DNA from: Chthonomonadaceae bacterium
Lineage (GTDB): Bacteria; Armatimonadota; Chthonomonadetes; Chthonomonadales; Chthonomonadaceae
DNA length: 63,612 nucleotides
Direction: 5' to 3'
NCBI GenBank assembly: GCA_027459665.1
Contig: DAIDHN010000019.1
Span: 1 to 63,612 of the forward strand
The position numbers and the translations under genes were made by a program. Below the pieces are notes generated by a model. That model saw nothing but the letters and a program-made list of their open reading frames with translations. It did no database searches and had not been told where the DNA came from. Of this stretch, positions 4,878-32,064 are shown in pieces; position 1 is the stretch's first letter, and each line of letters starts with the position of its first letter.

Positions 4878-5001
4878 GGATGGCAAAACACCGGGGAACG
4901 GAACAAGTGCAGAACAGAAGGCGTCGTACTAAGCGCAGTATCGTGCTGCGAGAAACCCTGCAGTATATGTCATGTCTCTGCAGAAGAACAGGAAACAACT
5001 T

Positions 5002-5841: not shown

Positions 5842-5875
5842 TCCGGCATCTTCCTATTCAACCGTGGAGAAACCC

Positions 5876-6874
5876 ATGTTTTCGTATAGAACCCAATCGG
5901 TGCGCCGCGCCTTTACTCTGATTGAGCTGCTCGTGGTGATAGCAATCATCGCTATACTGGCAGCCATTCTGTTTCCGGCTTTTGCTGCTGCGCGAGAACA
6001 GGCGCGGCAGTCTAATACCATATCGAACATGCATGACATATACGAAGGGGCGCGCATTTACAAGGAAGACAATGGTCAGTACCCTGCTTCACTCTTTGGT
6101 TATGCAGAAGTCGCCTCTCCCAATGCTGCCATACCGGGCAGCCCTGCCGGAATGCCAGCCCTCCCTTCAGATTTGGGTACAGTGCCGATTGTTCCCATGG
6201 AAAAAGCAACGGAGAACTTCAGCACTGTTTTATCTGGCATTCTGCCCTATCTGTACCCGCACCAGGTAAAAGACTATACAAGCTTTCTCTGCCCAGACAA
6301 CCCGGTTACCAGCCAGACTGCAGTTACTGAAGCATATTATCCGCTGGCGCTCACGGGCGGAGTACCTACACTGGTTACCTGGCAAAGCTCCAACAACAAT
6401 ACCCCCTGCCCAGGATATGGCGATACCGATCTGCCTGTGAGGCAGCTTGCCGGAGGTACAACCGACCCAACAGCCTACCTGACGCAGCCTAAACTGTTTT
6501 ATACCATGGATACCATGGATATTGGCCCTATGGTGAACAGCAGCGGACAGCAAATGCGTGATGCAAAGGGCAATTTGATGTACGAACTGCACTATACCCC
6601 CGACTGGACGCACCTGCGTTACAACATTGCCAATGCCTGCGATGTGTTTGGGGCAAACGGTATACCGGCCTATGGCGATGAGCCGGCAGGCACGCCTGTT
6701 ACTGAACAGATGAAGTACAAAAACCCTCCTACAGAAAACACCATACTTACCTGGAATACCCAGCATGCCGCCTCTGCAGGATCGGGGAATGTAATCATCA
6801 TTCTGTTGTCTGGAACGGCTCGCAAAATCAACCTGAACCAGGCATTGCAGCAGCTTCCGCTGGATTACCACTGA
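5876..6874 (+). CDS. Type IV prepilin / pseudopilin, second tandem copy
   Basis: A 332-aa prepilin whose leader (MFSYRTQSVRRA) precedes '[18 protein letters not shown]' and 'ILFPAFAAAREQARQ'. ATG 5876 has GGAG 5 nt upstream. A longer in-frame start at 5792 would overlap the previous gene and give an implausible leader. The shared blocks 'CPDNPVT', 'DIGP', 'YELHYTPDW', 'TILTWNTQHA' and 'LLSGTARK' show that this gene and its neighbour at 5002 arose by tandem duplication. Which copy is the major subunit cannot be told from sequence. Confidence 0.9.
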   Translation: MFSYRTQSVRRAFTLIELLVVIAIIAILAAILFPAFAAAREQARQSNTISNMHDIYEGARIYKEDNGQYPASLFGYAEVASPNAAIPGSPAGMPALPSDLGTVPIVPMEKATENFSTVLSGILPYLYPHQVKDYTSFLCPDNPVTSQTAVTEAYYPLALTGGVPTLVTWQSSNNNTPCPGYGDTDLPVRQLAGGTTDPTAYLTQPKLFYTMDTMDIGPMVNSSGQQMRDAKGNLMYELHYTPDWTHLRYNIANACDVFGANGIPAYGDEPAGTPVTEQMKYKNPPTENTILTWNTQHAASAGSGNVIIILLSGTARKINLNQALQQLPLDYH

Positions 6875-7002: not shown

Positions 7003-9054
7003 ATGAGGCAGAGAACCGGGCAGTATAACAGTGGTGTGCGTACCCCAGGCAACCGAAGGCAAAAGGGCTTCTCGCTGGTAGAGGTACTGGTTACTGTGGT
7101 TATTCTGGTAATTGGCATTTTTGCGGTCGCCCGCCTGTTTCCATATGGGTTCCTTTCCATACAGCATACGGGCAATATCAGTATTGCTCAGGCAATGGCA
7201 CGCAAGCAGATAGAAGAGATAACTACTCCTTTCAACGCAATATCTGCTGCCCTGCCAGACTCTAACGGCAACCTGATTCCCATCAACAACATTGCTCCCA
7301 GCGACTTGTCTGAAACCTCTCAGGCAGAATTGCAGGCACTGCAAACCGCATACAATTTTACACTGCCTGCCAACTATCCGCTCTACTCGTTTTCAGATGT
7401 AAACCGGCTTCGCTATGTGCAGGGTGAAACGTTTACCATACCTGCAGCCAGCCCTTCGGTGCATCTGCTCAAACTGGGGCCGGTGTACAATAAGTTTCAC
7501 CTGGATGCCAGCAATAACGCAGCCGACAGCATTCTGGTAACCGGCGCCCCGCTTGCACGCTCGGTGCAGAATGAAGCCGGTACCGCAGACAATCCGCAGC
7601 CGGTGCCAGTGCTGAACCAGCAAAATGAATACGCTATAGATTACCAAAACGGCGCCATCGCCTTTTACCCCCGTGTTGCTAATACAGGGTATGCAGTGCC
7701 CTACCGCACCTTTGTGGTGAGCTACCAGGGATACCCGGCAGGCGGGCTTACCCCCATCACCTATACACTGGCAGTAGTGGTGAACGACACTGGTGCAGGC
7801 AGCGCTTCCAACCCCGTGCTTCCTCTCTGGCAGCCAATTGCAGGGCCGGGCACCACGGTACTCAGCCCGTCTGGCGTATTGGTAAGCCAGCTGCCGGCGA
7901 TGATACCAGGCAGCGAAACCGTGAGCCAAAAATTCAGACTGGTATCTAGTACGGCGGGGCCAAACCAGAACTTCAGCACCCTGTTTACGCTTGATCCCTA
8001 TGAGTATGCGTGGTACAGCCCGCAGGAGACAGGCAATGCCAATTTGGGAGCGCTTATTTTTAATCCCAGAGGGCATGTGTCGGTTGACCCCAACAATCCG
8101 GCTTCTACAGCGTCTGTCGCCACTCAGCCGCTGCAGGCAGTGGTGAATTATCTGATTTATGACAACCACATTCTGCGTGAAAACCACACTCTGTCAACCG
8201 CACACCCATACAATATTCAGCTCTCTGTGCCCAATGTGCTGCAGCAGGGAGATACTCTACCAGACGGCACGCAGTACGATGGCCTGTATCACGACGTGCC
8301 GGGCGATCAGACAACAGATGAAACAGACCTGGTGGTAGTCAACCGGTCTACCGGGCTGCCTATTTTCTACATGCAGAACGCAACACTCTATTCTTACAAC
8401 CCAGCCAACCCTTACAACCCCGGCACCGATGTGCCAGCCGGCATATATGACCGCAAAACCTCTGAACTGCAGTTTCAGCAGAGCTACATAGAGGCAAACA
8501 ATTTGCAAAATACCCCCATACGCATTTTGTACCGCACTGCTCAGGGGTGGGGGATGCAGCTGCAGCAGGCAGCGCTTGGCTACACATCAGTCGCCTCTGT
8601 TGGCTCAAACGGGTTGTCGCCCACACAGTACTACATAGGCGGAGGCGCATCTGGCGGGCTGGCCACCAGAATCTATTTTTCTATATCAGAAGCAGGCAAG
8701 ACGGTGGTACTGCACAATGTGGTATACGCAACCGCCAGCACAACTGCCAATGACCCTACTACTTATGGCAACGCCTCAGACCTGACGCTGCAGGTGGGCA
8801 CTCTGACAGACAACGTAAATGGAGTGCAGCTGGTGTATGCGAATATTCAGGATGACGTGCCTGGCGCTACCGCACTCTCCTCTGCTCCTACAGGGCTGTC
8901 GGTGACTTCTGTGCAGGGAGGCTCTCTCAAATCCAGGGTGGTTTGGCATGACAACAACGTAAACAGTACCAATATCATCTGGCACAAGATCGATCAGGAT
9001 GAACTGATGCCGGCAGGCGGCGCCAGCATGGTGAACGGAGGGGCTTCCAACTGA
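7003..9054 (+). CDS. Giant PilV-like minor prepilin
   Basis: A 683-aa protein with a prepilin N-terminus: a basic leader, then 'GFSLVEVLVTVVILVIGIF', which has the PilV-type 'SLVEVLV' signature with the conserved Glu. PilV proteins normally have about 150-200 aa. Here the globular part is about 640 aa and rich in Asn, Thr and Tyr, with no domain I recognise. It shares direction with the next four genes, and its TGA stop is one base from the start of the PilW-like gene, so the two are probably translated together. Likely role: a minor pilin that primes pilus assembly or presents an exposed domain at the tip. Confidence 0.82.
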   Translation: MRQRTGQYNSGVRTPGNRRQKGFSLVEVLVTVVILVIGIFAVARLFPYGFLSIQHTGNISIAQAMARKQIEEITTPFNAISAALPDSNGNLIPINNIAPSDLSETSQAELQALQTAYNFTLPANYPLYSFSDVNRLRYVQGETFTIPAASPSVHLLKLGPVYNKFHLDASNNAADSILVTGAPLARSVQNEAGTADNPQPVPVLNQQNEYAIDYQNGAIAFYPRVANTGYAVPYRTFVVSYQGYPAGGLTPITYTLAVVVNDTGAGSASNPVLPLWQPIAGPGTTVLSPSGVLVSQLPAMIPGSETVSQKFRLVSSTAGPNQNFSTLFTLDPYEYAWYSPQETGNANLGALIFNPRGHVSVDPNNPASTASVATQPLQAVVNYLIYDNHILRENHTLSTAHPYNIQLSVPNVLQQGDTLPDGTQYDGLYHDVPGDQTTDETDLVVVNRSTGLPIFYMQNATLYSYNPANPYNPGTDVPAGIYDRKTSELQFQQSYIEANNLQNTPIRILYRTAQGWGMQLQQAALGYTSVASVGSNGLSPTQYYIGGGASGGLATRIYFSISEAGKTVVLHNVVYATASTTANDPTTYGNASDLTLQVGTLTDNVNGVQLVYANIQDDVPGATALSSAPTGLSVTSVQGGSLKSRVVWHDNNVNSTNIIWHKIDQDELMPAGGASMVNGGASN

Positions 9055-9055
9055 G

Positions 9056-11170
9056 ATGAAACCTTACGCTTTCAAGTCGAGTTCAGAGCCGCATGGCAGG
9101 CCATCTGCCGCAAGGCATGCATTTACACTGGTAGAACTGCTGGTGGTAATCGCTATTACATCGCTGCTCATTACACTGGTGGTGCAGCCGCTTACAGCCA
9201 GCTTTAGTCTGGTCAGCCAGGCAGGCACACAGATTGAGAGTCAGTCGGCGGCACGAGACACACTGCGCGAGATTTCTGTTTCTCTTTCAGATGCAACTCT
9301 GGTATACGACAACTCGGCTCCGCAGGGCAGCACGAACCTGTGGGTAACCAGCCAAAACGCTCTGCCTGCCATTGCAACGCTGCCCTACGCACGAGTGGAT
9401 ATTGTTGAGCCACTGCATGCCCTGGATCAGCAGGGAAACCCTACTGCAACCGACCCTACAACCGGCAACCCGATTTTTCCGGCGGGGCAAAACAGCATTG
9501 CCCTCCCTGCAGCGCCTGGCAGGGTAATTACGCGCTATTTTATTGGCCTGATAGACAACCAGTCTGCTGCAGATACCAGCGGTAATTCGCAAACAGGCAT
9601 GCCTGTTGCATCAGACGGCAAAACCTTTCACGGGTACCTGAACCGCTTTACCGATCCGAACAATTCTGGTCAGGACAACCGCACCACGCTCTACAAGGCG
9701 CAGTTCACTGCCAGCATATACAATACATCTACCAATTCGTATATTCCCAACCTCGACCTGTTTCACACCACTGGCGGACCGACTGCAGATTCGGAGAAGG
9801 GACAGATTGTTCTCAACGACCCGAATTTCTTCTACGACGCCACCCCCGCAGGGCCTGTAGATGACCCCAGCTTCAAGCAGGGAGACCCGCACTGGGGGGT
9901 GCCCGGCTGGCAGCGAATCGCAAAGAAATACGGCATGCCGCTTACTGTGGTGTACCGCTGGGAGAACTGGGCGGCAGTTTCTTCACCGCTGCTGCTCACC
10001 GCCAAGTCTGATGCTGTATCTATTCTGCTCAACGACGACGGCTCGATACAATACTGCAACAATCTGCCCAGTGTGTCGCCGCTTATCAAGTTTGTGCCGA
10101 ACCCGGTGCAAAACGAACCGGCAGCTCCGGTGAGTGTTTCTGCCGCCGGAGACGAGACGCCGCTGGCATCGCCCGCAGTTTTTACCGCCAAGTACGGCGC
10201 ATGGGGGCAAAACTATTCGGTAAAAGTTTTTCGTGCTGCAGCGCCAAATACAGACCCGCTGTCGCAGGGAACGCTTACCTACTACCAGTATTACACTGGC
10301 ACAGACGGCATTGGCCACATTGTAGCGCAAACCGTGCCTCCGGGCGGAACTCCTGCCAACCCGACAACGCTCACTGATGTGGGGCCGCAGCTGAACGCTC
10401 AGGGTCTGTTCAATTTGACCCAGCTGCCCAATGTGCAAATTGCGTTTGCACCAAACCCGGTGTCTGGCCTGATTGAGTTTGCCTTTCCGCAGTGGGCTAC
10501 GCTGGGAGGGGTAGGCTTTGCGCCCCAGTACAGCCCGGTGAATATCAACAACAATCTGACAGGGCAGTATGGAACCCGCTACATTCTGCTGAGCCAGATG
10601 CCCCAGGTTACTTACAACTCTGCAACGCTGAATGGGTTTCCTGCCGGAGCCGAGTCTCCGCTTCTGCTTCCCAACGCCAGCATAGTGCCTGGCAGCGAGC
10701 AGGTATTTGGTCCAGACCAGCGTGCGGGGGCGAATTACGGGCATCTGGTGCAGTACCACCGGGTGGCGTCTCTTACCGGCAGCATTGGGCAGGACGAGTA
10801 CAAAATCAACTACACGGCACTGCCCGGAGCGGCTAACGGAGACCCGCGGCTGCAGGCAGGGTACATTCAGTTTGACAGCCAGAACGATACGCCCGATGTG
10901 CAGAACCTGAACCAGATTGGTGTATTTTCTGCCAACAGCCTGCCTGTCTGGAAGTACGATCTGAACACCAATACCACACAGCCTGCCGACCCGGTAACGG
11001 TAAAATTTCAGTTCCAAACAAACCAGCAAACCGATATTGTGCAGGTAAGCTATCAGACCAGCGACAAACTGCGCGTTTCTATAGACGCAAGGCTCTACGA
11101 TCCCTCTTCAGCAACGGCTCAGCAGTCTCTGCTGTCGCAAACAGTAGCAGTAAGGAACCTGCAGCGCTAG
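9056..11170 (+). CDS. Giant PilW/GspJ-like minor prepilin
   Basis: A 704-aa protein. A basic leader (MKPYAFKSSSEPHGRPSAARHA) is followed by '[20 protein letters not shown]', a prepilin signal with Glu5, and by a helix with 'SQAGTQIESQSAARDTLREI', which resembles PilW/GspJ. PilW usually has 250-350 aa, so this one carries some 400 extra residues of exported sequence without a domain I can name. ATG 9056 lies just after the stop of the PilV-like gene, with GGAGGGG upstream. The position between PilV-like and PilX-like genes supports the assignment. Confidence 0.8.
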   Translation: MKPYAFKSSSEPHGRPSAARHAFTLVELLVVIAITSLLITLVVQPLTASFSLVSQAGTQIESQSAARDTLREISVSLSDATLVYDNSAPQGSTNLWVTSQNALPAIATLPYARVDIVEPLHALDQQGNPTATDPTTGNPIFPAGQNSIALPAAPGRVITRYFIGLIDNQSAADTSGNSQTGMPVASDGKTFHGYLNRFTDPNNSGQDNRTTLYKAQFTASIYNTSTNSYIPNLDLFHTTGGPTADSEKGQIVLNDPNFFYDATPAGPVDDPSFKQGDPHWGVPGWQRIAKKYGMPLTVVYRWENWAAVSSPLLLTAKSDAVSILLNDDGSIQYCNNLPSVSPLIKFVPNPVQNEPAAPVSVSAAGDETPLASPAVFTAKYGAWGQNYSVKVFRAAAPNTDPLSQGTLTYYQYYTGTDGIGHIVAQTVPPGGTPANPTTLTDVGPQLNAQGLFNLTQLPNVQIAFAPNPVSGLIEFAFPQWATLGGVGFAPQYSPVNINNNLTGQYGTRYILLSQMPQVTYNSATLNGFPAGAESPLLLPNASIVPGSEQVFGPDQRAGANYGHLVQYHRVASLTGSIGQDEYKINYTALPGAANGDPRLQAGYIQFDSQNDTPDVQNLNQIGVFSANSLPVWKYDLNTNTTQPADPVTVKFQFQTNQQTDIVQVSYQTSDKLRVSIDARLYDPSSATAQQSLLSQTVAVRNLQR

Positions 11171-11248
11171 CCGTATGTCTAACAGAGAGCAGAGCCAAAT
11201 CGGCTCCAGGAAGGTCCTGACTCTCAAAGAAAGCCGGGAAGAAACCAA

Positions 11249-14200
11249 GTGATATCGAACGATTTTATGCACAGACGAATACGGGCACAGCGCGGTCAGA
11301 CGCTGTTGATAGCGCTGATTGTGCTTTTTACCCTGCTCTTTCTTGGAGGCATATTTGTAGCCCGCATTGCGCACAACCTCACGCAGTCGGGGCGCAGCAG
11401 GGATACCGGTGCAGCAGAGCAGCTTGCTCAGGCTGGGCTGAACTACTGCAATCAGCAGCTCAATACCTCGCCGCTTGGCGCAGACTGGCGGCCAGTACCA
11501 AGCACTCCTGTCAGTCTGCAAGACCCCGACTTCTTCTGGCTGCAGCGCGGCTTCTCCAGAATACTGATGAACGGTGGAAGAGTGCTGGTGCGGGTAGGCT
11601 ATGCCCCCAACACAAACAACCCTGTTGGTTCATCACTGGTGATAGAGTCGGTTGGCCGCCCTGGCGCGCTGCCCAATCCTGCCGGCAGCGACCCTACGGT
11701 ATTTGTGCCCACCGGCAATTCCCCGCAGCTGCGTTCTGAAAGAGTTGCCTACAAACAGATTGGCCTTACAGATTACGCCTTGTATGTTACAGGAAAAACA
11801 CGGCGCACTGTGGCAAACTACATTGGTACGCCTGCTATCGGCCATCCGGTGGCAACAGTGCTGGGCAACCCTATGATTGGGTTTGCACAGTATGCAGGCG
11901 GCAGCAACAATGGCACCGCCCTGTTTGGGTACCCTGTCTATGTGAATGGCGACCTCGACCTGGGCAGCGATACCTACCTGTACGAAAGCCACAGGGGCGG
12001 GGCGACCAACCTGAACCAGGAAAACGTATTTGTAAACGGAAACATCAAACTTGACCCGGGCCGCATTCAGGCAGATTACAGCAGCATCAACGATGCGGCT
12101 TTTCCTGCCTACCTCAACGAAGAGATAGATCAGCCGCCCGTAGCTGCCAATGGAGCGACCAGCGGCGCTATTCTTGCAAGTTCCTCAGCCTTATACAACA
12201 CTTTTCAGGGCATAGTGAGAGACGCCAGCGGTCAGCCTGATGTAAACGGCGTTACCCGCGACGTTCCGCGCCTTGACCCGCCCAGCCTGAGTACCACGGT
12301 GAGCGGAAGCGGCGTGCTGCGCTACAGAGCGCTTACCCGCGATTCAGGCTTCTGGTATACCGACAGCAGCGGGGTGAAGCAGAATACCGGGGAAGACGGG
12401 TACGGCACAGGCATTTATGTGAACAATTTTGCCGATTTGCAGAAGGAAACCGCGGTTGCCGGTGTAAACGGCGGCTACTCTGAACGTGCCGACTGGCTTA
12501 ACCCCAGTGCGCATTATGCAACCAGCGTAAACGGCGTAAGCTATGGCTGGAACGGGCCGTACTACCGGGCGCCGGGAGTGCAGATAGACCTGCTGGGCAA
12601 TACCATTCAACTTACCAGAGACGATGGGCAGCAGTTTACACTGCCAGACGGCACCAGGAGCAATACGCTGACTATACCCTTGTGGGATTATGCACGCGTC
12701 AATACAATTCTTCCCAATGGCATACACCTTGTTCCGCTGAATCACAATGGCGATGATGCCGGCCCCAACTCACCATTTGGCGACCCCAATTCATATGGCG
12801 TAAGCCTTGTGCTGTTTGCAGAAGGAAATGTGCGCGTGCAGGGCGTGTACGGTGCTATTACCAATGTAAACGACACAGCTGAAAGCGCAACGGTGAGCAA
12901 ACTGGGGCGTGTGCATCTGACCATTGTAAGCGGGGGCACCGCCTACATAGATGGCAATGTGGTAAGCGGAGACGGCTATGTGTCGGGGGGGACAGTGCAT
13001 ATGGAACATGCCTCTACCCTGGCAATAATGGCCAAAGACTACGTATGCGTGAACACCACACAGTTTATGCGCCAGCGAGCTGCCAATCTCTGGACATCGC
13101 AGAATCAGGACAGCAGCCCGCCCTTCTATACCGAACTTGGCAATTCTGGCACAGACACCCTCGATACCACCTTTTCATGGGGAATCAACCCTGGCGACTA
13201 CACGGTGAACGGAGCACAGTCTCCTCTGTTCCTAATGATGCGTCACGGTGCTCTGGGCAGCGGCATTGCGCCATTCAATCTGCTCGTGAACCCGGCTCTC
13301 GCCGCCAACCCGGCCAATGCCTATTTCCAGTTCCCTTTCAATACCGTGCCTTCTACAGCGCCAGCCGGTGGAACCTACGGGGTGCAGGGGCAGGAGAGCC
13401 TGGGCTATGCACTTGCTCCGGGCTACCTGGGCACACTGCTTACCGGCGGCAATCAGCTGCCTGCCAATACACAACTGCCCGCACTCAATCAGCCCGGCTA
13501 CGACAACCTGTTTCGCATACAGTTCGACAGAAGCGCCGAACTTGCTACCAACAGCATGAGCGACTTGCAGCAGGGATCGATCATGGCAGCGCCGCTGGAT
13601 ATTCGTATTGAGGCAAGCCTCTATGCAGAAAACCGCTCGTTTTTTGTGATACCCGGCTACTCTTTCAACCCGGATGCAGCAGATTCACGGGATGCATATC
13701 AGCTGCGCGGAAACATTCGCATATCGTATAATCAGGGAGACATAGCCAGTCTGAATACGGGGCAGTCGCCCACAGCCGACAGGCTGCTGAAGGACGTGTA
13801 CCCGTTTTACGATGAGCCGAATGATGTACGAATCACCATGTTTGGCTCTATAGCAGAAAACTATACAGCCTCTGCGGGAGACCAGGCTGCCTGGATGAGA
13901 CGCTGGGGATACATACCCGATTACTACGGCTCTACACAGTACTACACCAATACAGCGTACCGGGTGCAGGTGCCAGACATGCATCTGCTGAACCAGGACC
14001 CGTTGGAACTGCTGCCGGGAGAAGACATCACGCTGACCTATACAACACCGCTTGAAAGGCAGAATGCAGCACAACTCGCTTCTGCTCAGCCAGGCGTGCC
14101 CATAACAAACGGGCTGCGTTACGAGTACAATCCGATATTGGCCATGCCCTACCTGAACCCAACCGATATGACGCTGATAGGCAACCAGAACCTGAGCCAG

Positions 14201-14404
14201 CAGCGCGCAATTAGAGCAAACTTCTACTCGATATCGGTGCCTTCTGCAACAGGCTCAACGCCCTACACCTATCGTATTGAACAGATACTGCCAGCTCTGC
14301 CAGATCTGCCCGTGTGTCCCAACTATTTGTACGCCGGCAAAAGCAGCGACCTGATAGGAAGCCTGCCGGGCGATACCGATCAAACTGCGTCGTTGAGAAA
14401 CTGA
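11249..14404 (+). CDS. Giant PilX-like minor pilin with long exported domain
   Basis: A 1051-aa protein. The N-terminus 'RGQTLLIALIVLFTLLFLGG' followed by 'ARIAHNLTQSGRSRDTGAAEQLAQAGLNY' is typical of PilX/GspK proteins, which lack the strict prepilin motif. The rest contains repeated strands of the form 'YVNGDLDLGSD', 'FVNGNIKLDPG' and 'AYIDGNVVSGDGYVSGG', which suggest a beta-helix or bactofilin-like stack at roughly residues 225-600. PilX normally has about 200 aa. The start is GTG 11249 with GGGAAG upstream; ATG 11267 is an alternative. The large exported domain implies a surface or tip function, but no substrate can be deduced. Confidence 0.8.
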   Translation: MISNDFMHRRIRAQRGQTLLIALIVLFTLLFLGGIFVARIAHNLTQSGRSRDTGAAEQLAQAGLNYCNQQLNTSPLGADWRPVPSTPVSLQDPDFFWLQRGFSRILMNGGRVLVRVGYAPNTNNPVGSSLVIESVGRPGALPNPAGSDPTVFVPTGNSPQLRSERVAYKQIGLTDYALYVTGKTRRTVANYIGTPAIGHPVATVLGNPMIGFAQYAGGSNNGTALFGYPVYVNGDLDLGSDTYLYESHRGGATNLNQENVFVNGNIKLDPGRIQADYSSINDAAFPAYLNEEIDQPPVAANGATSGAILASSSALYNTFQGIVRDASGQPDVNGVTRDVPRLDPPSLSTTVSGSGVLRYRALTRDSGFWYTDSSGVKQNTGEDGYGTGIYVNNFADLQKETAVAGVNGGYSERADWLNPSAHYATSVNGVSYGWNGPYYRAPGVQIDLLGNTIQLTRDDGQQFTLPDGTRSNTLTIPLWDYARVNTILPNGIHLVPLNHNGDDAGPNSPFGDPNSYGVSLVLFAEGNVRVQGVYGAITNVNDTAESATVSKLGRVHLTIVSGGTAYIDGNVVSGDGYVSGGTVHMEHASTLAIMAKDYVCVNTTQFMRQRAANLWTSQNQDSSPPFYTELGNSGTDTLDTTFSWGINPGDYTVNGAQSPLFLMMRHGALGSGIAPFNLLVNPALAANPANAYFQFPFNTVPSTAPAGGTYGVQGQESLGYALAPGYLGTLLTGGNQLPANTQLPALNQPGYDNLFRIQFDRSAELATNSMSDLQQGSIMAAPLDIRIEASLYAENRSFFVIPGYSFNPDAADSRDAYQLRGNIRISYNQGDIASLNTGQSPTADRLLKDVYPFYDEPNDVRITMFGSIAENYTASAGDQAAWMRRWGYIPDYYGSTQYYTNTAYRVQVPDMHLLNQDPLELLPGEDITLTYTTPLERQNAAQLASAQPGVPITNGLRYEYNPILAMPYLNPTDMTLIGNQNLSQQRAIRANFYSISVPSATGSTPYTYRIEQILPALPDLPVCPNYLYAGKSSDLIGSLPGDTDQTASLRN

Positions 14405-14427
14405 CCAGGCTCAGGAGTGATTTACGT

Positions 14428-17400
14428 ATGACACGCCATACCGAAAAATGGATGCTTCTTTGCATTCTGCTGCTGGCTTGCAACGGCTTTGCCGCGCACG
14501 CCTCCACGGTACAGTATTCCTCCGGGACACGCACCATCAACGCCTGTGTACTGGTTTCCAACGCCACTTCCCAGGAAAACGGGGTGAATTCAGGGCCAAA
14601 CAATCCCGATCCCTATCTGTTTTATGGCCTAGACAACCGAACCGACTACAAACCCGCAGGCTGGAGGTTTGTAAACCCGCTGGCGCCGCCTGTTATTACA
14701 CAGCCAATCTACACCCGGTGGCAGAGCCGCCAGGCTTCGGCGGGCACCGACCCGGCGTTTTCTACAGGAACCGTTACTCCGCAGCAGCAGGTTTTTCAGG
14801 TAGGTCTTCCACTCACCGAAAACATGGGGGCGTACTGGGAAGAGAACCTTGATACCATCAGTCAGGCTGACCTCGACCAGTACAATGTGGTGTACCTGCC
14901 GCTGCTGGGCGGGCGCTTTGGGGCAGCTGCAGTGCAGTTTGACGAGCAGGAGAAACAAAAGCTGCAGCAGTATGTAGATTCTGGCGGAACGCTCTGGCTG
15001 GAAAATGACGGAGTGAACTCTTTTACCAGTGCAGACGGCGGCAACTTCTTTTTTCCGCTTGCAACAGGGGCAGTGCCGGGCAACAGCCTGCAAGACCTGG
15101 CTCCTTATCACCCAGTGCTTAACTCGCCTTTCGCTCTTGGCCCGGCAGATGTGAACAGCCTGCTGGAACCAAACGGTAATTTTGCCTCTTTTCTGCTCTC
15201 ATCCCCTCAGCTTCTCACACCGCTTGTATCAGACAGTGCAGGCAGTGTACTGCTTTATGCAGGCAGGTATGGGGCAGGGCACTTAATACTTGACTCGGCG
15301 TCGATTGGGGGAACAATCAGCCGCACTATTGGCGGCCCTCAGGTGGATGGGTATGTGAACAGCGGTGCGGTAAGCGGAGTGAATTTTACTTCCATTCCCG
15401 CCTCCAACCTGAAGGCAGCATTCAATATAGTCTCCTGGGCTGGGTATGGTTCGCGCAGCCAGACTGCTGCTCAATCGAGTATAGGGCACGATTTAGGCAT
15501 CGCCTGGAATACTCTGCCTGCTGCAGCCAATGGCATTGGAAGCGGTGTAACCGTAAGCAGCAACGTTGCCTACTATGTAGACGGCAGCAATGTGCTGCAT
15601 GCATACAACCTCACACCCGGCGTAAGCCTGGGTGGTTCGAGTTTGCTCAACGACAATGGCATAGTTGACTACAGCATGGGCTACCCATACGATGAAATCT
15701 TCAATTCAGCTCTGCCTGCAGGAGGGCAGTATGGCCGGCCGCTGGTTCCATCGCTGTTCAACCCTACATCCAATCAGACCATAACACCTGTCATTGTCAC
15801 CAATGCTGCTGGCACAACCACCGTGCTGAATGGCGTTACGCGCAATGCCGCAGGGCTGGTAAACAACTCTACCTCTACGCTGTTCAGCATTTCGCAGCAG
15901 GCGGCAGGAAACACTTTTGCAGATGGCCACGGCAATCTGCTTCCCGGCCCTTCCTGCGCCTATGCCGATGGCATTCTGTTTGTACCGGTGTACGACGATG
16001 TGGTAGGCAACTCTGAACAGGCATGGCATATTGTGGCGGTCAACCTGCTGCAGAGCCTGCAGAACGGATCGGCAGTAAACGCATTTGGCTCTGGAGAAAG
16101 CGGTGAGGCACCTTCTACCAGCACAACACTCAACCTGCCTGGGCTGGGGCCGCTCTGCGGGCCGCTTTCGGCAGGCTACGTTACAGACAAGGCAAGCGGT
16201 GCAGAAGACCTGGTAGTTTTTGCACCAGTGCAGGGGGTGGCTGGTACAAGCTCTGGAGGCGTGAATGCTGTCTGGTTTGCAACGCGCAATGAAGGGCTTA
16301 TATATAAAGGCAATGCTTCACAATCAGGTTACAGCCTGTTCACGCCTACACGTGCAAACGTTCCCTGGTTCACCAACACCAGCGGCAGCCAGGCGCTGCT
16401 CCCAGTCATTCATATCTCTACCGTAACCCCACAGGGGCAGGTAATCAGTGTTGCTTCTTACACATATCCCAACTCCAACATTATTATTGACTATACATCG
16501 GGGGTGACCAGGGTAAACATAAGTGACTCCCTGCTTGGGCCTGCGTCAGGAGCGCCCGCTGGTTCAACTTATGTTGTGAGCGCAGACTATACCCTTGACT
16601 GGCCGGGCGATGCGATCAATGGCACCAATCCTACTGCGCAGCAGATGCGAAGCATCTATGCCTTTAGAGGGTTTACGCTTTATAATTCAAGCAGCAATAC
16701 CACAAACTCAGACTTTATGACAGGCGGCGCTACGCTTGATTCCAACGGTTCTCTGCTGTTTGGAGCATTTCCCAGCGGCCTGGTAGATGGCAACGGGGGC
16801 GGCAGTCTGCCCGACAGACTGTACAGCGTTACCAGTCAGTTTATTCAGCCTGGCGGTCCTATCAATGTTGCAGGAGGCACCACAGTAAACTGGATGTGGT
16901 CTCCTACCAGCAAGGAAGTGTTTGACGGTCACCAGATCAATGAGCGTCTGACGTACACAGCCAGCAGCGGCGCACTGTTTGACGTTGCAAATTTCCGTGT
17001 GGTGGGCAAGCCAACCGTCCTGAACGGGGTGGTGTATGCTCTGGCCACTGGCCTGCTGCCGGGTGCAAGCGCTTCGGCGGGCAATGTGCCCTGCACTATA
17101 GTGCTTGCGCTAAATGACCAGATCAATCAATCGCTGGCACTCAACCCGCCTGTAGAAATCGGCACAAACGCCAGCGTTTCTACCAGCTCGCTGCAGGTTC
17201 AGCAGCCAGATCTGGTGAATACCACAACCAGCGCCAACCCTGTTTACCTGACGCTGAAGAATGGCAGAGACTACAGCCTCAATACTACCATCGACAGTTC
17301 GGGGGCAGTGTATGCAACTTCCATTCAGTTCAACAGCCTGCAGGTGCTGCCGGGGCAGGATTCGTTCAACACAGCCATGCCGATCTTTCTTTTGCAGTCG

Positions 17401-19323: not shown

Positions 19324-19395
19324 TGGAAGGCATAAAAAATGGTTTCACACAGCGGCAGCAATCACTGCCGAAAAGATAATGAGGGAAATGGCAAT

Positions 19396-22300
19396 ATGAA
19401 ACAGAAGAAAGCAGCGTATGCCCTCTGGCTTACACAGTGCGTACTGCTGCTTGCTCTTACCGCACTGCGCACGCAGGCGCAGATACCTTTTACCCAGGAC
19501 GACTGGACACTGGATAGAGGCTCTGCCACAGTGAGCGTTGGCAGCAATTACAATGGTCTGGCGCTGCGGCAGGGCTACAATGCTTTTCAGGATACTGGCA
19601 ACAACCCGCTGCATTCCGTGCGCCGATGGGTGTGGCCGGCTTCAGCCGATCTGCAGAATGCTATTTCAGCAAACGGCGTGGCAGGCACGTTTGGGGAAGT
19701 TACCGACAACCCGAATCCGCTAGACACCAACAAAAGCGCTGACACAGGTTCTCTGCAGTTTCCAACGGCTATTGCCCAGTGGAATACCAATATCTTCTCT
19801 ATTCCTGCCCCGGCGCTTAGAGTGCCCTACGGCGGCTACAGTTTTATTACAGATCCAACCAACCCTGTATCCTTTGATTACGGGGTTGCAGTGCCGATTC
19901 AGACAAATATAGACGATGCAAACGGCAATGTGGTAAGCGCCCAGACCCTGGAAGCGCTTCCCTATGTTAACTCTACTATCTACAGCAATGTGCAAACCGC
20001 GCTGGTAAACGATACTGCAAACAGTGCGCAGTACTCTATGGGTACGCCGGTGGTTACCGGCACGCTGCAGCCCGGCCAGTATGTACAGGTGCAGTATGAG
20101 GTGCAGGTATGGTCGCCGGGAGATGGCACAACCACAGTTGCCAATGGCGTAAGCACTGTACACCCCAATGTGCAGCATGTTTTTGTGCGCGTCAGCTGGA
20201 ATGGCACTGTGAACAACAACGCCATTGTAGAAGGCAGCGGAACAGCGGGTGCTGGCGGAATAAATGACCCGGAAAACAGCCGCATTTATTTGATGGACTT
20301 TTCGGGCGGACCTGGCTGGAGAACAGTGGGCGCATTTGCCTCGGGCAATCAGACAGCCGCGGTGCAGCCGGCCCTCTTTCCCTATCGCACAGACCAGCCC
20401 GGCAACCAGCCGGCAGTAACCATTTACAGAGATACGCCAGACAACCCAAACGACACTAACATTTACGCAAACACCCCGCTGGTCACAGCCGACGCAGTGC
20501 AGTTTGTGCCGGTGAGCGTGCAGGTCGTTACTCCCGGCGCCACCGCAACATCCAGCGGCAACCTGGGCAGCGTATCTCCCATTTCACCCATAGGCAGAAT
20601 ACTGGCCCCCATTGTCGGCACAAATCAGCTGATCACCAATACCAAAGACCTGGACTATGGTTCAGACATTTATTTTGCGGCTCGCGAGGAAACAATACCG
20701 CCCACTGCCGCACTGGCAGCTGTAGACCCGACGCAGACCACCCTTACTTCTACCAACGACCCCAACTCATCGCAGACAGTGCCGGTATTTTACTGTCTGA
20801 ACAATATGGATGAGGCGGTTACCCAGGGCACAACTGTTACCAATGCTCCCTCTGAAGACAGGGTGCGCTGGCGGTATGTGGCTACACCGGACGCAGGAAC
20901 AGGCACCTGCATAGCATCACCGCTGCTGGCCAATGTACGCTGCCGCGACGGGGTGGTGCGCCCTATGGTTTTCTTTGTCACAACCAATGCCGGCGGCACC
21001 CTGGGGCATATCTACGCCCTCAACCCGCTGGGTACCGGGGCATTGAACAACCCGCTGCTCAACCGGCCATCCAATCCGCCTGTGGGATACACTGCCGGCG
21101 ACCTCACCAATTACTCAACAAGCGCATACTGGATATATCCCTCGTTTAGGCCGCTGCTTGGCACAGCCAATGAGCCGCCCAATGCGCCCGCTGCCTGGGA
21201 AGACCCCAACTACACCCTGCCGATCAATACCGGCGGCTATGCGCGCACGGGGTATCCTGCTGCTGCATTTGGAGCAGACCTCACACTGCCCAACTACGAT
21301 GGCGACATTGTGGCGACAGGAAATGCTTCGCAGCCCTACGCCACTCGTACAGATACGCAGATTGTTCTGGGTGGAATGCCCTGGGCGCCTGCTCTTGTGA
21401 ACGACCCAGACAACCCTGCGGGGGCGCAGCTGCTGGTGGTTGGTGCGCAGGCCAATGCATCCGATGGTCTGCCGCACAGCCGCATATGGGCCTTTGATGC
21501 CGGCGGGCGCGGCGATTTTGGCACGGTAACTTCCAATGCTACCGGCACCCCCACAGTAGTGCCCGCAGCCGGAACCACTCAGCGCATATTTACCTGGCCG
21601 CATTTCGGCACAGACGGGTTTCATTACGCCAATTCAGATACAGCCAACGGGTATACGCAAACATTCAGCATTGCAGACGAGGCGCCCCTGGGGCTTATCT
21701 CCGGTTCACCGGCATTCGATCCCAATTACCCGGGCGCCGAACAGCCCATTATGTTTGGCACATCAGATGGGCGCATGTATGCAGTGCTGCCTCATCACGA
21801 TGTATTCAAGGGCATCAATACCAACAATCAGGCGCTGTACGACAACAGCAAGAGAGAATACTGGGTGTACCCTGCCCTCAGTACTGCCGGTTTCGGGGCA
21901 GGCTTTTCCACCCCGGCATTCTATCAGTCCACCAAAACAGGAAACCGGTACCTCACATTTACCAGCGATTTGCCGGATGGTTCGGGCGGCAGGGTGTACA
22001 TGCTTCCCGAAGACCCTGTTACCGGTGTTCTGAACTCACAGACGCCCGTCACCAACACGCTTACCTGGGTCTACCCGCCTACGCCTGTACCACCTGCAGC
22101 CTCTGCAACCGACCCGACCACCAACCCGCTGTCGCCCGGTTTTGGCTCTTCTGCGCCAATGCCAGTAAACAGCGGCACAGTAAATACGCTGCTTGCACCG
22201 TATGGGCTTTCCATACCCTACGACATGGTGTATGTGGTACAAAACGATGGCACAGTAGATGCAATAGAGGCTGATCCTGCAGGAGACGGCAACGGAACTG

Positions 22301-25300
22301 CGCCTGCGCTCTATTCCAGCAGCCCGGCGTTTACCGACAGCACTACCTGCACGCCAATGGCTACCCAGATTATTTCGCAGGCAGGCAACCTGAGCAACAC
22401 CCCTATTTCGGCAGATGCCAACAACGCTTTGCCTGCGCTGATGTTTGCAGACAACGGAGGAAGCATTTCGGCTTTTGGGCTGAATGCCATAGATGACGGC
22501 ACCGGCACAGGCACTACTCTGCTGCCTGCTCTGTGGCAGTACACAGATGCTTCCAATACGCGCATAGCAAGCGCAGCACTTGTGAACGGCTATGTGGTGG
22601 AAGGCGATTTGGGAGGGCAGCTGCACGCATACAGCAATGGGCTGGGGGCAAATGGTCTGAATGAGACCGTTCCGCCTTCAGAAACGCTGGGCGGAAACAG
22701 TTACTATGACACGGTAGACCTGCGCACAGTGAACTACTACAAGTATGCCGACTGGAAGAACTTCATGCTTCCCACTGCAAACGGCGGGGAAAGCCCGGCA
22801 GTTGATGCCAGCGGCAACCCTCTTCCTGGCGCAGCCTCACCTATTCCTGCTACGCCGCTGCCCAGAAACGGCGTTCCCGCCGACTGGGGCGATACCCTGT
22901 ATGTGGCAGCGTGGGGCGTGTACCATGCCCAGCCGACACAGGCACAGGGTGGAAACAACAACGGCACAGTTGTTACCGGCCTCACAGCACCCAGAATCAC
23001 TGTGACCTTCAGCGTGCTGCAGCCTGACTCTACACAGCGCACAACCATTACTGTGCCGGCAGAGGTGATAGATGCAAACCACAGCGGATGGCCCGCAGAC
23101 CTGGCAGGCATTGCGCTGGGCGGCAACTATCAGATTGCAGGCTGGGACAATGGCCTGCAAACGGTATCTCTGCTGAGCAGCACCGCTGGCCAGAATGTGT
23201 ACCCCTGGGTGGCAGTGTACCAGCTGCCTATACACCCTGATGCGCAGCACCCGTTCACGCCCGGTCTGGGCGGCGTACGCATATCCGCCAGGGCCACCAT
23301 TACCCAAACAGTGAGCATACAGAATAATGGGAGAGGGGCGCAGACACAGACCATTACGCGAAGCTCTATCTTCCTGCGGGCTGGTCAGCATGACAGCGGC
23401 CTGGTGAATACGCAGGGAAATGGAAACTTTACAACAGGCACCCCCAACAACCGCGCACTGCGCGGCAGGGTGCGCCCTCTGTTTGTTACCAATCCGCTGG
23501 CGCTCTCTACTGCCGGCGAAGACCCTGCAGGTCAGGCAGTTGGGGCGAATGGCATTGCAGACAATACCGGCCTCAACGTTCCCTTTACCGTAGGCTGGGC
23601 AGGATCTGTACAGAACCCGGTTGGTTATCTGCAAGACCTGTTTGGCAACGGCGCTGCAATAGGATGGTTTGGCAGCAGCACCTACAAAGACCCGCTGGCT
23701 CCGCTGGATATGACGCCGGATGGAAGCAGCGTGCAGTACCAGGGAATGAATGCCGCCGGCAGCCGTGTGCCTGCCCTTTACGTGATGGACCGAAGCGCCT
23801 ACTACGAAATCACCGGCAGCGCACTGCAGTATTCGGTATCTGTGCCTTCGTTTGAATGGTATGGCGGGGCAAGCTCAGTGATGAATCCGCTGCCGTGGGA
23901 AACCATGCCCGGCAATGGAGTGGGAAGCGCCGACTATCCGCCCATTCCGTCTACCGCGGTTACAGTGACTGGCCCCGATGGAGTAGACACAACGCGTGCA
24001 AACGGTACCCTGCTTACCCCTACGCAGCCCATAAACGACACCAATGTAATAGACCGCGTACTGAGGCCAACACAGCTTACCTTTGCGATGAACGTACCCA
24101 GGTACCAGCCTGCCAACGTGAACGCAGGGCTGACAACATTCAACGGCACCACCTTTGGCGCCGGCTTTACCACGCTTACGGGGCAGCTGCTGGGAAGCGG
24201 CAGCCCAGTGCTTGGGCCTGCGCTTACCTACGGCAACGGGCAGCTGCCTGCTACCGCAAATGCCAATACATTCCCGGCATTGGGCTACATTGCTCCAGAA
24301 ATTCAGGTGTCGGTACACCTGCCCGGCACGCAAAGAAGGGTGATACCACCCAACGGTTTCAATAGCGTGAACCAGCAGATGGCAACCCGCGTCTTCACCT
24401 CTATGGTAGATGTGCCGCCCTCCTTCCGCATGAATGTGAGCGAGAGTACAGTAGACCTGGGCAATGAACCAGCAGGCACGGGGTATTCTCCGGTCAACGG
24501 GAACGGCTACTCTCTTCCGTTTGCCCCAAGCGGGGTGGGGGTTTATCAGGCAGGGATCATTTCTCCCTGGGACAACGCCGCCATCAACGGCATTGGCAAG
24601 TTCTTCCATCCGTTCACACTCAACAGCGAAAGCAATGTGAACCTGGTGAATCTGCGCATAGCCGATCTGTTTGGGGTGCCTGGCGCATCAATCACGCCCG
24701 AATCGCTTACCACCAACCCGCTTGACAACAACGTAGCAGTTTCTGCGCGCCTTACCAGCGACCAGGTAGACCAGAGCCTTACTCCCTGGCTGCTTGGCGT
24801 GCCCTTTGGCCGACCGGGCAGCAACGCAAGCGGGTCTGGCCTGGGCAACATAGGGTACGTGAGTTCCTTTGACCATGCCTCCAGTTCAGATGCCTCAACC
24901 AGCGCCATATCGCTTTACCCAGTGAACAACAGCACCTATCTGGGCGGTCTGACCAACAACTGGCCAAACAGCCTGCAGCCGGTGCCGACGCTGCACAAGC
25001 CGCTGCCCGGCGATTCGCAGGGAACAGTGGCCACTGTGCCCGATGTGCCGCACAACTACACAGGAGTAGTGCCGCCCAAGCCCGAAATTGGCATTGCCAT
25101 ACCGTATGGCACGCCGGTTGGCTCATACAGCGGCAAGGTAATTGCCTACGAAGATGAACTGCCAGTGCAGTGGCAGTGGTGGCTGGCAAATACCATCAAT
25201 CCGGGGGTAACGCCCCTGCCTGTGAGCAACGACGGCATTTTGAATACCACAAGCACCCAGATTGCCGGTACGCTCACCGACCCCACCGGAGCAATTGAGG

Positions 25301-27837
25301 GCGGAGTGCTTGAGCCATTCGCACAGCCCTTCAACCTGCATGTGAACGTGATTTCGAATCGCCTCACAAATGGGGTAGCGGCAGGCAGCCTGAGCCAGAT
25401 GGATCTGGTGAATCCGCTGGCGCAGTTCACATCGGCCGGCATTCAGCCCGGTCAGCTAACAGGGCCGTTCAACACACTGCCGGCAGTACAGTTCAATGCC
25501 AATGGCGCCAATTCGCAAATTGTGTCGTACTTTACATCCAATCGTCCCGTCAACGGCGCAGCACTGGTGCCCGGCCAGGCTGGGGTGTACAGTTCTGTTA
25601 TTAATCTGCCTTACAACAGCTACAGCTTTACCGGCGTACTGGGCAATGAGACCATTTTGCGCGGAGACGCTTCGTTTAGCACCGCCAATGCAATCAATTC
25701 CCTTTGGTGGACGCCGCCTTCGAGTCTGCTTGCAATGGATGCGGCAACTACCGCATCCCTCTTCCCAAGCACGGGTGATTTCTCGGTGCCCGGCACGCCT
25801 GCACTGGCCACACTGCGCTACGGAGATGCAGCAGTGGCGCAGGGAGAAGACATTGCCCTGAACGGCGGGTATACGCCCTATGCAGACGCTGAAGGCTATC
25901 TTGCCTGGCTTGGCCAGGTAGATAAGAACCAGGGAGTTGCACAGCAGCAGATAGACGAACGCATCTTTCTTGAACCAGTTACCAGCGGCGTAGCATCCGG
26001 GGGAGTCATCTCCTTCCCAGTCACAGGCAACCTGCCCAATTCGAGCGTGCGCCCGCTGCTGGCAAAGTTCATGGCATCAGACAACACCCGCGGCACCACT
26101 ACCCAGAAAATGCTCTTCCTCTTCTGGTCGGCGGGCGGCAGCGGCAGCTCTCGCATATATTATGATGTGAACGCATACAGCAGCAGCGGGCAGCATCTCA
26201 ATCTGCCCGGCGATGCCATAACCTCGGATGGATGGATAACAACCGGGCAGACTACCGATCCCAGGCTGGGAGTGCAGCAGCTTTCACTGCCTGCCTCTGT
26301 GACAGCGGTCAATGATCCATCGCCCGTCTACCGTCAGGTAGTTGCGCACAACCCATTCGACCCGGGCAATTCTGCCGATGTACGCACCTTCGACTGTGTA
26401 GATGTGTACTTCAGCGGCAAACTGCGCGGCAGAGGCGGCATACGCCTGCTGATGGCGCGCTACGGAATATACCGAGGCGAAAACCTGGGGCCAAATGCAC
26501 CGGTGATGAGAATGGGGCAGCTCTTCCTTATGCCGCTGCCTTCGGTGGTAAACGAGCAGCTGGTGCGCCGAGGCGATACAAATACCTGGGTTGCGCGGGA
26601 TGCCGACTGGTACACAGGCGTGCAGCCCGGCGCCGGGGTGAACGGGAATGGTGCTGCTGCGCTTTCGGGTGAAATCTATGTACAGCTGGAACACCTCGAC
26701 CCTGCCACAGGGCTGTATGGCGCTCCGCTCAACCTCAATGTGCCGGCAGGAACCACCATTGCTCCAGCCGGAACCTACGATCCAGCTTCCGGGGTGGTCT
26801 ACTTCAAGGTAGATACCACCAACCCCGCTACCGGCGCAGAAGTGGACGGCGCCAACAACCAGCCCATTCTGAGCGGCGGCGTGATGGTGGTGAATGCAAG
26901 CGCGGGTACTGTTACCTTCCCGAATATCCCGCCTGCATCGGGCGACAAGCTTCTGGTAAGCTATCAGCCGCAGGTGCGCGATCTGAGCGTGAGCCGTGGA
27001 GACAGCAACCTTATACTGGCGGGCGGATATGGCAACTTTGCTGCACCGCCCTCAAACCTGCTGCCCCAGAGCTGGACGCGCACACCCGGCGATGCCTATT
27101 CGCCCTCGGTGCTGCTGGATACCAGCGACAACCCGCGCAGGCAGCTGCTTGCCCCCGTGGTTACGTTTCTGGGCAACGGCAAGCCAAACGCTGCGGCCAG
27201 CAACGGAACGCCAATGCCTGTAGACAGGCTGTGGGTTATCTACCGCAAAACAGACACTAACGGCGCCCAGAAACAGGCGGTGTATGCAAAAGCTATGCGC
27301 CTGATGGTGAGGCTGCCTTACCCTGTGGAACTCACAGCGCCTGCCGCCAGCGGGCTGCAGCAAATTGCCAGCCTGACAGTGACTGTAGACCCGCACGACG
27401 CCAACCCGTCGCAACCGCTTGGCATGTACGAAGTAGACTGGATGCGGGGAAGAATATACTTCACCACCGCAGATGCCGGCAGACTGATTGATGTGAACTA
27501 TACTCCTGCAGGCGGAGGGGTGACACAGAGCGGAACCCTGGTGTACCGCGTTGCATGGGGTGATGAGATAAGCACCAACAGCGATGTGAAGTACATTCTG
27601 GTGAACAACCAGCCGGTGATAGTAGACCAGAACGGTCAGTCTACCGCCGACACCACCACGCCAGAGGCTCTGGTGCCAATGTCTACCAGCGGTAATGAGG
27701 GCGAGGTTGCGGCTCTTCTCGATCCGTATCTGCCGCGTATCTGGCTCTTCTGGTCTGGCACGGATGCCGGTTCAACCGACCTCTATTCGGAGACCATTGC
27801 GCCGCAGCTCTATCCGCAGGCCACCAACCAGCACTGA
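19396..27837 (+). CDS. Giant exported beta-propeller-like protein 2 (2813 aa)
   Basis: ATG 19396 lies behind GAGGGAA and begins a signal peptide (MKQKKAAYALWL, ending near 'LRTQAQ'). Residues about 535-1080 hold at least six PQQ-like blades: 'HIYALNPLG', 'RIWAFDAGG', 'GRMYAVLP', 'YVVQNDGTVDAIEA', 'GSISAFGLN' and 'GQLHAYSNG'. The C-terminal third has two related strands, 'LFLFWSAGGSGSSRIYYD' and 'IWLFWSGTDAGSTDLYSE'. No anchor, sortase motif or C-terminal membrane helix is seen. It ends 17 bp before a strong terminator, so it is the last gene of the pilus block. A PilY1-like surface role is inferred from the propeller and the gene order. Confidence 0.72.
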   Translation: MKQKKAAYALWLTQCVLLLALTALRTQAQIPFTQDDWTLDRGSATVSVGSNYNGLALRQGYNAFQDTGNNPLHSVRRWVWPASADLQNAISANGVAGTFGEVTDNPNPLDTNKSADTGSLQFPTAIAQWNTNIFSIPAPALRVPYGGYSFITDPTNPVSFDYGVAVPIQTNIDDANGNVVSAQTLEALPYVNSTIYSNVQTALVNDTANSAQYSMGTPVVTGTLQPGQYVQVQYEVQVWSPGDGTTTVANGVSTVHPNVQHVFVRVSWNGTVNNNAIVEGSGTAGAGGINDPENSRIYLMDFSGGPGWRTVGAFASGNQTAAVQPALFPYRTDQPGNQPAVTIYRDTPDNPNDTNIYANTPLVTADAVQFVPVSVQVVTPGATATSSGNLGSVSPISPIGRILAPIVGTNQLITNTKDLDYGSDIYFAAREETIPPTAALAAVDPTQTTLTSTNDPNSSQTVPVFYCLNNMDEAVTQGTTVTNAPSEDRVRWRYVATPDAGTGTCIASPLLANVRCRDGVVRPMVFFVTTNAGGTLGHIYALNPLGTGALNNPLLNRPSNPPVGYTAGDLTNYSTSAYWIYPSFRPLLGTANEPPNAPAAWEDPNYTLPINTGGYARTGYPAAAFGADLTLPNYDGDIVATGNASQPYATRTDTQIVLGGMPWAPALVNDPDNPAGAQLLVVGAQANASDGLPHSRIWAFDAGGRGDFGTVTSNATGTPTVVPAAGTTQRIFTWPHFGTDGFHYANSDTANGYTQTFSIADEAPLGLISGSPAFDPNYPGAEQPIMFGTSDGRMYAVLPHHDVFKGINTNNQALYDNSKREYWVYPALSTAGFGAGFSTPAFYQSTKTGNRYLTFTSDLPDGSGGRVYMLPEDPVTGVLNSQTPVTNTLTWVYPPTPVPPAASATDPTTNPLSPGFGSSAPMPVNSGTVNTLLAPYGLSIPYDMVYVVQNDGTVDAIEADPAGDGNGTAPALYSSSPAFTDSTTCTPMATQIISQAGNLSNTPISADANNALPALMFADNGGSISAFGLNAIDDGTGTGTTLLPALWQYTDASNTRIASAALVNGYVVEGDLGGQLHAYSNGLGANGLNETVPPSETLGGNSYYDTVDLRTVNYYKYADWKNFMLPTANGGESPAVDASGNPLPGAASPIPATPLPRNGVPADWGDTLYVAAWGVYHAQPTQAQGGNNNGTVVTGLTAPRITVTFSVLQPDSTQRTTITVPAEVIDANHSGWPADLAGIALGGNYQIAGWDNGLQTVSLLSSTAGQNVYPWVAVYQLPIHPDAQHPFTPGLGGVRISARATITQTVSIQNNGRGAQTQTITRSSIFLRAGQHDSGLVNTQGNGNFTTGTPNNRALRGRVRPLFVTNPLALSTAGEDPAGQAVGANGIADNTGLNVPFTVGWAGSVQNPVGYLQDLFGNGAAIGWFGSSTYKDPLAPLDMTPDGSSVQYQGMNAAGSRVPALYVMDRSAYYEITGSALQYSVSVPSFEWYGGASSVMNPLPWETMPGNGVGSADYPPIPSTAVTVTGPDGVDTTRANGTLLTPTQPINDTNVIDRVLRPTQLTFAMNVPRYQPANVNAGLTTFNGTTFGAGFTTLTGQLLGSGSPVLGPALTYGNGQLPATANANTFPALGYIAPEIQVSVHLPGTQRRVIPPNGFNSVNQQMATRVFTSMVDVPPSFRMNVSESTVDLGNEPAGTGYSPVNGNGYSLPFAPSGVGVYQAGIISPWDNAAINGIGKFFHPFTLNSESNVNLVNLRIADLFGVPGASITPESLTTNPLDNNVAVSARLTSDQVDQSLTPWLLGVPFGRPGSNASGSGLGNIGYVSSFDHASSSDASTSAISLYPVNNSTYLGGLTNNWPNSLQPVPTLHKPLPGDSQGTVATVPDVPHNYTGVVPPKPEIGIAIPYGTPVGSYSGKVIAYEDELPVQWQWWLANTINPGVTPLPVSNDGILNTTSTQIAGTLTDPTGAIEGGVLEPFAQPFNLHVNVISNRLTNGVAAGSLSQMDLVNPLAQFTSAGIQPGQLTGPFNTLPAVQFNANGANSQIVSYFTSNRPVNGAALVPGQAGVYSSVINLPYNSYSFTGVLGNETILRGDASFSTANAINSLWWTPPSSLLAMDAATTASLFPSTGDFSVPGTPALATLRYGDAAVAQGEDIALNGGYTPYADAEGYLAWLGQVDKNQGVAQQQIDERIFLEPVTSGVASGGVISFPVTGNLPNSSVRPLLAKFMASDNTRGTTTQKMLFLFWSAGGSGSSRIYYDVNAYSSSGQHLNLPGDAITSDGWITTGQTTDPRLGVQQLSLPASVTAVNDPSPVYRQVVAHNPFDPGNSADVRTFDCVDVYFSGKLRGRGGIRLLMARYGIYRGENLGPNAPVMRMGQLFLMPLPSVVNEQLVRRGDTNTWVARDADWYTGVQPGAGVNGNGAAALSGEIYVQLEHLDPATGLYGAPLNLNVPAGTTIAPAGTYDPASGVVYFKVDTTNPATGAEVDGANNQPILSGGVMVVNASAGTVTFPNIPPASGDKLLVSYQPQVRDLSVSRGDSNLILAGGYGNFAAPPSNLLPQSWTRTPGDAYSPSVLLDTSDNPRRQLLAPVVTFLGNGKPNAAASNGTPMPVDRLWVIYRKTDTNGAQKQAVYAKAMRLMVRLPYPVELTAPAASGLQQIASLTVTVDPHDANPSQPLGMYEVDWMRGRIYFTTADAGRLIDVNYTPAGGGVTQSGTLVYRVAWGDEISTNSDVKYILVNNQPVIVDQNGQSTADTTTPEALVPMSTSGNEGEVAALLDPYLPRIWLFWSGTDAGSTDLYSETIAPQLYPQATNQH

Positions 27838-27899: not shown

Positions 27900-27916
27900 G
27901 TAACTGGAACCGAACC

Positions 27917-32048: not shown

Positions 32049-32064
32049 ACAGTGTTCTCCTTAG

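Follow-up and report, generated by a model that had tools for sequence, protein, structure and literature searches.

A module of five consecutive genes, which encodes three giant minor pilins (V, W and X) and two large exported propeller proteins (Y1 and Y2), is a phylum-wide trait found in almost all Armatimonadota. The module most likely specifies the complex that primes a type IVa pilus and forms its tip, in which modular giant minor pilins would carry a head of two propeller proteins with a PilY1-like function. We analyzed it in a Chthonomonadaceae relative (Armatimonadota), on a stretch of 63,612 nucleotides, hereafter the window, that represents contig 19 of its genome (3.67 Mb). The original prediction, made from this DNA alone, recognized a minor-pilin module with a PilY1-like component; it missed the phylum-wide spread, as well as the nature of X, which appears to be of the ComZ/GspK type rather than a classical PilX.

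An open reading frame check of the window confirmed all five plus-strand genes at the positions and with the sizes initially read from the sequence (Table 1); together, they encode 6876 aa or 726 kDa (about 0.73 MDa) of protein. By homology, the best starts are 11267 for X (an ATG that yields 1045 aa, the other option being a GTG at 11249 that yields 1051 aa), 14428 for Y1 and 19396 for Y2. Because the genes, their order and their sizes recur across the phylum, a chance arrangement is excluded. Measured against canonical minor pilins, V, W and X are enlarged roughly three- to fivefold, as had been claimed for every product of the module. The claim fails for the propeller proteins: Y1 is about 1.4 times and Y2 about 2.4 times as long as Pseudomonas aeruginosa PilY1, which has 1,163 residues (PMC3248442).

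Table 1. Features of the pilus operon in the window.
Feature	Position	Strand	Description
PilB extension ATPase	162..1148	+	C-terminal 328 aa only; window begins at contig end
PilT retraction ATPase	1222..2490	+	synteny, 69-85% identity in relatives
PilC platform protein	2589..3809	+	NCBIfam NF052607 E 1e-126, NF052606 E 2e-122, both below the models' own cut-offs
PilD prepilin peptidase	3849..4877	+	sequence and position; conserved in operon
Pilin, GspG-like N-terminus	4972..5841	+	N_methyl, GspG-like match
Second pilin, GspG-like N-terminus	5792..6874	+	N_methyl
V	7003..9054	+	PilV/GspI-type minor pilin, 683 aa
W	9056..11170	+	PilW/GspJ-position minor pilin, 704 aa
X	11249..14404	+	PilX/GspK-position giant tip pilin (putative), 1045-1051 aa, predicted ComZ-like fold
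X long N-terminal pilin helix, residues 11-67	11297..11467	+	AlphaFold model
X inserted beta-sandwich, CBM6/35/36-like, residues 601-777	13067..13597	+	fold similarity only, Z up to 8.3
Y1	14428..19323	+	exported double-propeller protein, 1631 aa
Y1 DUF4159 domain	14839..15147	+	PF13709, 31.8 bits, above cut-off
Y1 propeller 1, BamB-type	15553..17808	+	Tako8 6g6m Z 17.3 over 300 residues; BamB 4imm Z 16.6
Y1 propeller 2, NHL-type	17806..19065	+	7djl_B Z 19.6 over 262 residues, other NHL propellers
Y2	19396..27837	+	exported giant protein, 2813 aa
Y2 PQQ-type propeller region	20803..22725	+	limits approximate, by eye; designed PQQ propellers 6tjh, profile E 3e-16
Y2 conserved C-terminal domain	26833..27837	+	best conserved part in aligned relatives

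The gene order in the window is pilB-T-C-D, two pilins, then V-W-X-Y1-Y2, and the presence of PilB, PilT, PilC and PilD alongside pilins is that of a type IVa pilus operon. The remaining components, PilM, PilN, PilO, PilP and the secretin PilQ, are encoded on contig 25, separately from the module in this genome and directly downstream of it in most of the phylum. The proposed match to a pilV-pilW-pilX-pilY1 operon is borne out in this setting, with the five genes forming the minor-pilin and tip part of a type IV pilus operon. The 5' end of the second pilin frame overlaps the preceding frame, and its true start probably lies further in than 5792. PilB is full-length in relatives (589-621 aa), with a C-terminal part 76-91% identical to the fragment in the window, where the gene is cut by the contig end. 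At positions 1-161, where the contig ends inside pilB, an in-frame stop directly precedes the conserved part, so that the N-terminal part of PilB is either absent or scrambled in the window.

Across Armatimonadota, X was detected in 261 of 275 genomes, Y1 in 88 of 91, and the C-terminal domain of Y2, which was used for the phylum search instead of a full Y2 alignment, in 71 of 91. A scan of GTDB with two Y2 peptide patterns yielded only Armatimonadota-type or nameless bacterial titles. The giant sizes are kept in relatives even at 24-30% identity. As far as the contigs reach, the complete block pilB-T-C-D-pilin-V-W-X-Y1-Y2 is kept in Chthonomonadales and one further lineage of Chthonomonadia, and in the other well-sampled family of Chthonomonadales it runs directly into PilM, PilN, PilO and PilP, and PilQ where read. 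In seven deep lineages, each read over about 32-38 kb, the order V-W-X-Y1-Y2 is kept throughout, with 537-764 aa for V, 499-724 for W, 821-1044 for X, 1362-1707 for Y1 and 2156-3590 for Y2. The pilB-T-C-D genes precede the module in six of the seven and pilM follows in five of those six; in the stretches read, lineage G060 has pilB-T-C-D before the module and no pilM, and lineage G047 shows neither.

Synteny was counted over 55 loci from the GTDB scan, with the testable cases as denominators. X is directly upstream of Y1 in 22/22 loci and Y1 directly upstream of Y2 in 38/43, such that the giant genes were not found to lie away from the pilus genes, an outcome that was to count against the original prediction. 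In 28 of 41 loci, pilM comes immediately after Y2, and 7 of the 13 exceptions come from the window's own family. Y1 is not adjacent to Y2 in 5 of the 43 loci, and in one deep lineage (G222) a gene on the opposite strand separates the two. Such separation would fit a reading in which Y1 and Y2 belong to the cell surface or matrix and share the operon without ever contacting the pilus, but the retention of both across the phylum inside a pilus operon, between X and pilM, makes this distinctly unlikely.

The prepilin signals reported for V and W are real. The N_methyl domain (PF07963), the class III signal, scores above the cut-off in both window proteins (2e-7 for V) and is present in all 14 V homologues and all 11 W homologues, which identifies V and W as type IV prepilins. 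The PilV model TIGR02523 matches 14/14 V homologues; in window V it covers residues 20-82 only, at 29.5 bits against a curated cut-off of 52.2, so the protein as a whole does not reach the level of a PilV family member. Beyond the N-terminal end, V and W are assigned by position. The models of Verru_Chthon cassette proteins B and C (TIGR02598, TIGR02599) show weak N-terminal matches from V homologues and W that are far below the cut-off where window proteins were scored.

In their relative positions and N-terminal kinds, V, W and X also correspond to GspI, GspJ and GspK of type II secretion, a system that a survey assigned to Armatimonadetes (PMC6668835), and could accordingly be viewed as a type II-like secretion pseudopilus that moves Y1 and Y2 as substrates. 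There is only a slim chance of this, given that PilT is encoded in the operon, that pilM-N-O-P-Q comes next in most of the phylum, and that the same genome contains a separate type II secretion locus (contig 26, 8523-19998) with a 983-aa secretin, whereas Y1 and Y2 are encoded with the pilus genes. The pseudopilins of that locus, named from our own reading of gene order and N-terminal sequences, are GspG (170 aa), GspH (179 aa), GspI (157 aa), GspJ (319 aa) and GspK (605 aa). Because these are smaller, giant size is a property of the pilus tip genes and not of all pseudopilins in this organism.

X begins with a conserved RGQ(T/S)L start and lacks Glu5, as is the case in GspK-type pilins. No Pfam or NCBIfam model matches the window protein or nine homologues, so X is not a classical PilX or GspK by sequence; HpsA and Verru_Chthon were likewise rejected as families for X, which matches no family model. 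An hhalign comparison with GspK of the same genome aligned the N-terminus only, at 15.7% probability, PDB sequence profiles gave nothing at E 1 or E 10, and no sequence match between X and ComZ was found. In the AlphaFold model of X (27 sequences, pLDDT 81, pTM 0.87), a helix of 57 residues at the N-terminus is followed by pilin-like strands and a very large beta insert, and closing strands lie close to the C-terminus. Among 996 chains aligned to it with VIA-align, the top match is ComZ of Thermus thermophilus (6qvi; Z 11.2, 271 residues), in an alignment that spans residues 112-1022 of the model. The next matches (Z <=8.3) are mostly carbohydrate-binding modules that fall on the inserted beta-sandwich, a resemblance near the common-fold level that can be mere shared architecture. 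Among the Foldseek matches listed, carbohydrate-binding modules and unrelated beta folds predominate, with weak E-values.

ComZ is a pilin resembling GspK into which a beta-solenoid is inserted, and its authors placed it at the pilus tip (PMC6561018). It shares with the model of X the GspK-type pilin core with its N-terminal helix and a large beta insert in the sheet, and differs in length (554 aa versus 1045 aa, X being about twice as long) and in lacking the extra CBM-like sandwich. By predicted fold, X thus appears to be a tip pilin of the ComZ/GspK type and not a classical PilX. ComZ binds DNA (PMC6561018), and the window genome has ComEC and DprA, so DNA uptake is a serious alternative or an added job, with the module forming the tip of a competence pilus in which X would be a ComZ-like DNA receptor and the propeller proteins would aid uptake. 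A shared fold shows no ligand, however, ComEC and DprA are also present in most well-known control genomes, and the sandwich of X resembles carbohydrate-binding modules; as a replacement for adhesion, we regard this function as improbable. The two functions are not mutually exclusive.

The signal peptides of Y1 and Y2 were seen by eye and recur in homologues of both proteins. In Y1, the DUF4159 domain is present in 14/14 homologues, and AlphaFold modeling of the 1196 residues behind it predicts two propellers. The first is of the BamB type and, judging from its matches to Tako8 and BamB, probably has eight blades; the second is of the NHL type, in agreement with a profile match of Y1 to the designed NHL-type propeller Pizza6 (E 5e-10). 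Foldseek matches of Y1 to DDB1 and similar proteins reflect tandem propellers, not kinship. Thus, the propellers, whose absence from both giant proteins was to speak against the original prediction, were found in each, in Y1 by model, fold search and profile match and in Y2 by profile match. The C-terminal domain of Y2 has a mean column identity of 46% in aligned relatives, compared to 34% for the whole protein. A Golvesin_C domain occurs in 5 of 14 Y2 homologues (best E 3.9e-21) and was undetected in the window Y2.

The known minor pilin/PilY1 complex (PilV-PilW-PilX-PilY1) shares with the module the gene order, the prepilin signals and an exported propeller protein after pilX. In that complex, PilX and PilY1 are predicted to pair by beta-strand complementation. 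Like PilY1, the propeller proteins combine export (signal peptide by eye), an N-terminal domain and a beta-propeller. The differences are that all three minor pilins are giant, that there are two propeller proteins instead of one, and that Y1 has DUF4159 in place of vWA, followed by BamB-type and NHL-type propellers. By sequence, neither Y1 nor Y2 belongs to the PilY1 family: its model PF05567 (IPR008707, T4P_PilY1) matched none of 14 Y1 and 14 Y2 homologues at E 0.1. The same model had 0 matches over 151 genomes, in a search without a positive control that is not proof of absence. The PilY1 structure 3HX6 is not among the 50 matches listed for Y1, which does not exclude similarity.

Most, although not all, PilY1 proteins contain calcium motif 1, Dx(D/N)xDGxxD (PMC13190605). 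This motif occurs at one position, in blade 1 of the Y1 propeller, in 18 of 26 Y1 sequences, compared to 0.04 of 26 after shuffling, and is absent from the window Y1 and its closest kin. Such calcium loops are common in other propellers too, so the motif supports similar working and is not proof of descent. If Y1 and Y2 were true, very diverged PilY1 proteins, their position after pilX, their export, the N-terminal domain followed by a propeller and the motif in many Y1 relatives would all be accounted for; we nevertheless consider descent unlikely in view of the 28 homologues without a PF05567 match, the BamB and NHL types of the Y1 propellers and the wide occurrence of calcium loops. Because PF05567 is not matched, the PilY1 equivalence is one of functional analogy, in which Y1 and Y2 would take the role of PilY1, as suggested by position, export, domain layout and, in many relatives, the calcium motif. 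The label "PilY1-like" used in the original prediction can be read in this functional sense and is not supported for descent.

For Myxococcus, a complex of PilY1 and minor pilins has been proposed that primes pilus assembly, occupies the pilus tip and serves as a cork once retraction ends (PMC7541494); in the simplest reading, the five proteins described here would do the same with a head of about 0.73 MDa. PilD of the same operon would cut the signal ends of V, W and X, whose N-terminal helices would then initiate the fiber and remain at its tip; large extra domains are carried by each of these three proteins. At the very tip, X would present its large inserted beta body and CBM-like sandwich. 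Y1 and Y2, exported by Sec, would bind the tip and replace PilY1, with Y1 contributing DUF4159 and two propellers, and Y2 a PQQ propeller and a long multidomain body. Since PilB would extend and PilT retract the fiber, the head would be pushed out, stick to a surface or polymer, and be pulled back. We infer the tip position, the contact of Y1 and Y2 with X, the formation of a single complex, and adhesion as the main job. More tentatively, the ancestral Armatimonadota pilus tip might have been rebuilt into an adhesive head by convergent replacement of PilY1; too bulky to re-enter the secretin, this head would stay outside as a permanent grapple and cork, a possibility about which we are rather doubtful.

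Modular type IV pilins, with a functional module on a pilin core, are known in 264 architectures, among them PilB of Streptococcus sanguinis, and the most extreme multi-domain pilin cited has 860 residues (PMC8179133). The present case differs in that three giant pilins have been inherited together throughout a phylum, with extra modules that lack a consistent match to any Pfam family. Pilins with added modules and large tip pilins have precedents (PMC8179133, PMC6561018), and this combination is new as far as found: no paper that we found in the mostly open-access literature describes it or its near-universal occurrence among Armatimonadota. The passages found of the Fimbriimonas genome paper list PilB, PilC, PilD, PilQ, PilM and PilT and do not mention the module. 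The suggestion of a large tip or surface machine undescribed under that name agrees with this search outcome, and placement at the tip is probable.

The binding targets of a type IV pilus are set by its tip complex, and the module bears on how a pilus works without a classical PilY1. It amounts to a natural experiment, almost phylum-wide, in which a standard pilus engine is kept and the tip is rebuilt at giant size, and it offers new material on the size of pilus tip that the secretin can accommodate. In this poorly cultured phylum, the module is a marker and likely an adhesion or uptake head.

Y2 is followed in the window by a small exported-looking protein of 238 aa (27902-28618) that matches no Pfam model and lacks a homologue among the operon neighbors compared. 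Directly beyond the pilus operon, on the minus strand and oriented toward it, lies a type III-B (Cmr) CRISPR effector cluster (29849-35935) with RAMP proteins, Cmr3 and Cas10/Cmr2; the frames that flank it (28661-29833 and 36089-37678) have no Pfam match. Farther along, at 49650-56397, a GxGYxYP putative glycoside hydrolase, two Acyl_transf_3 acyltransferases and an ABC ATPase with a Wzt-like C-terminus suggest a surface polysaccharide locus.
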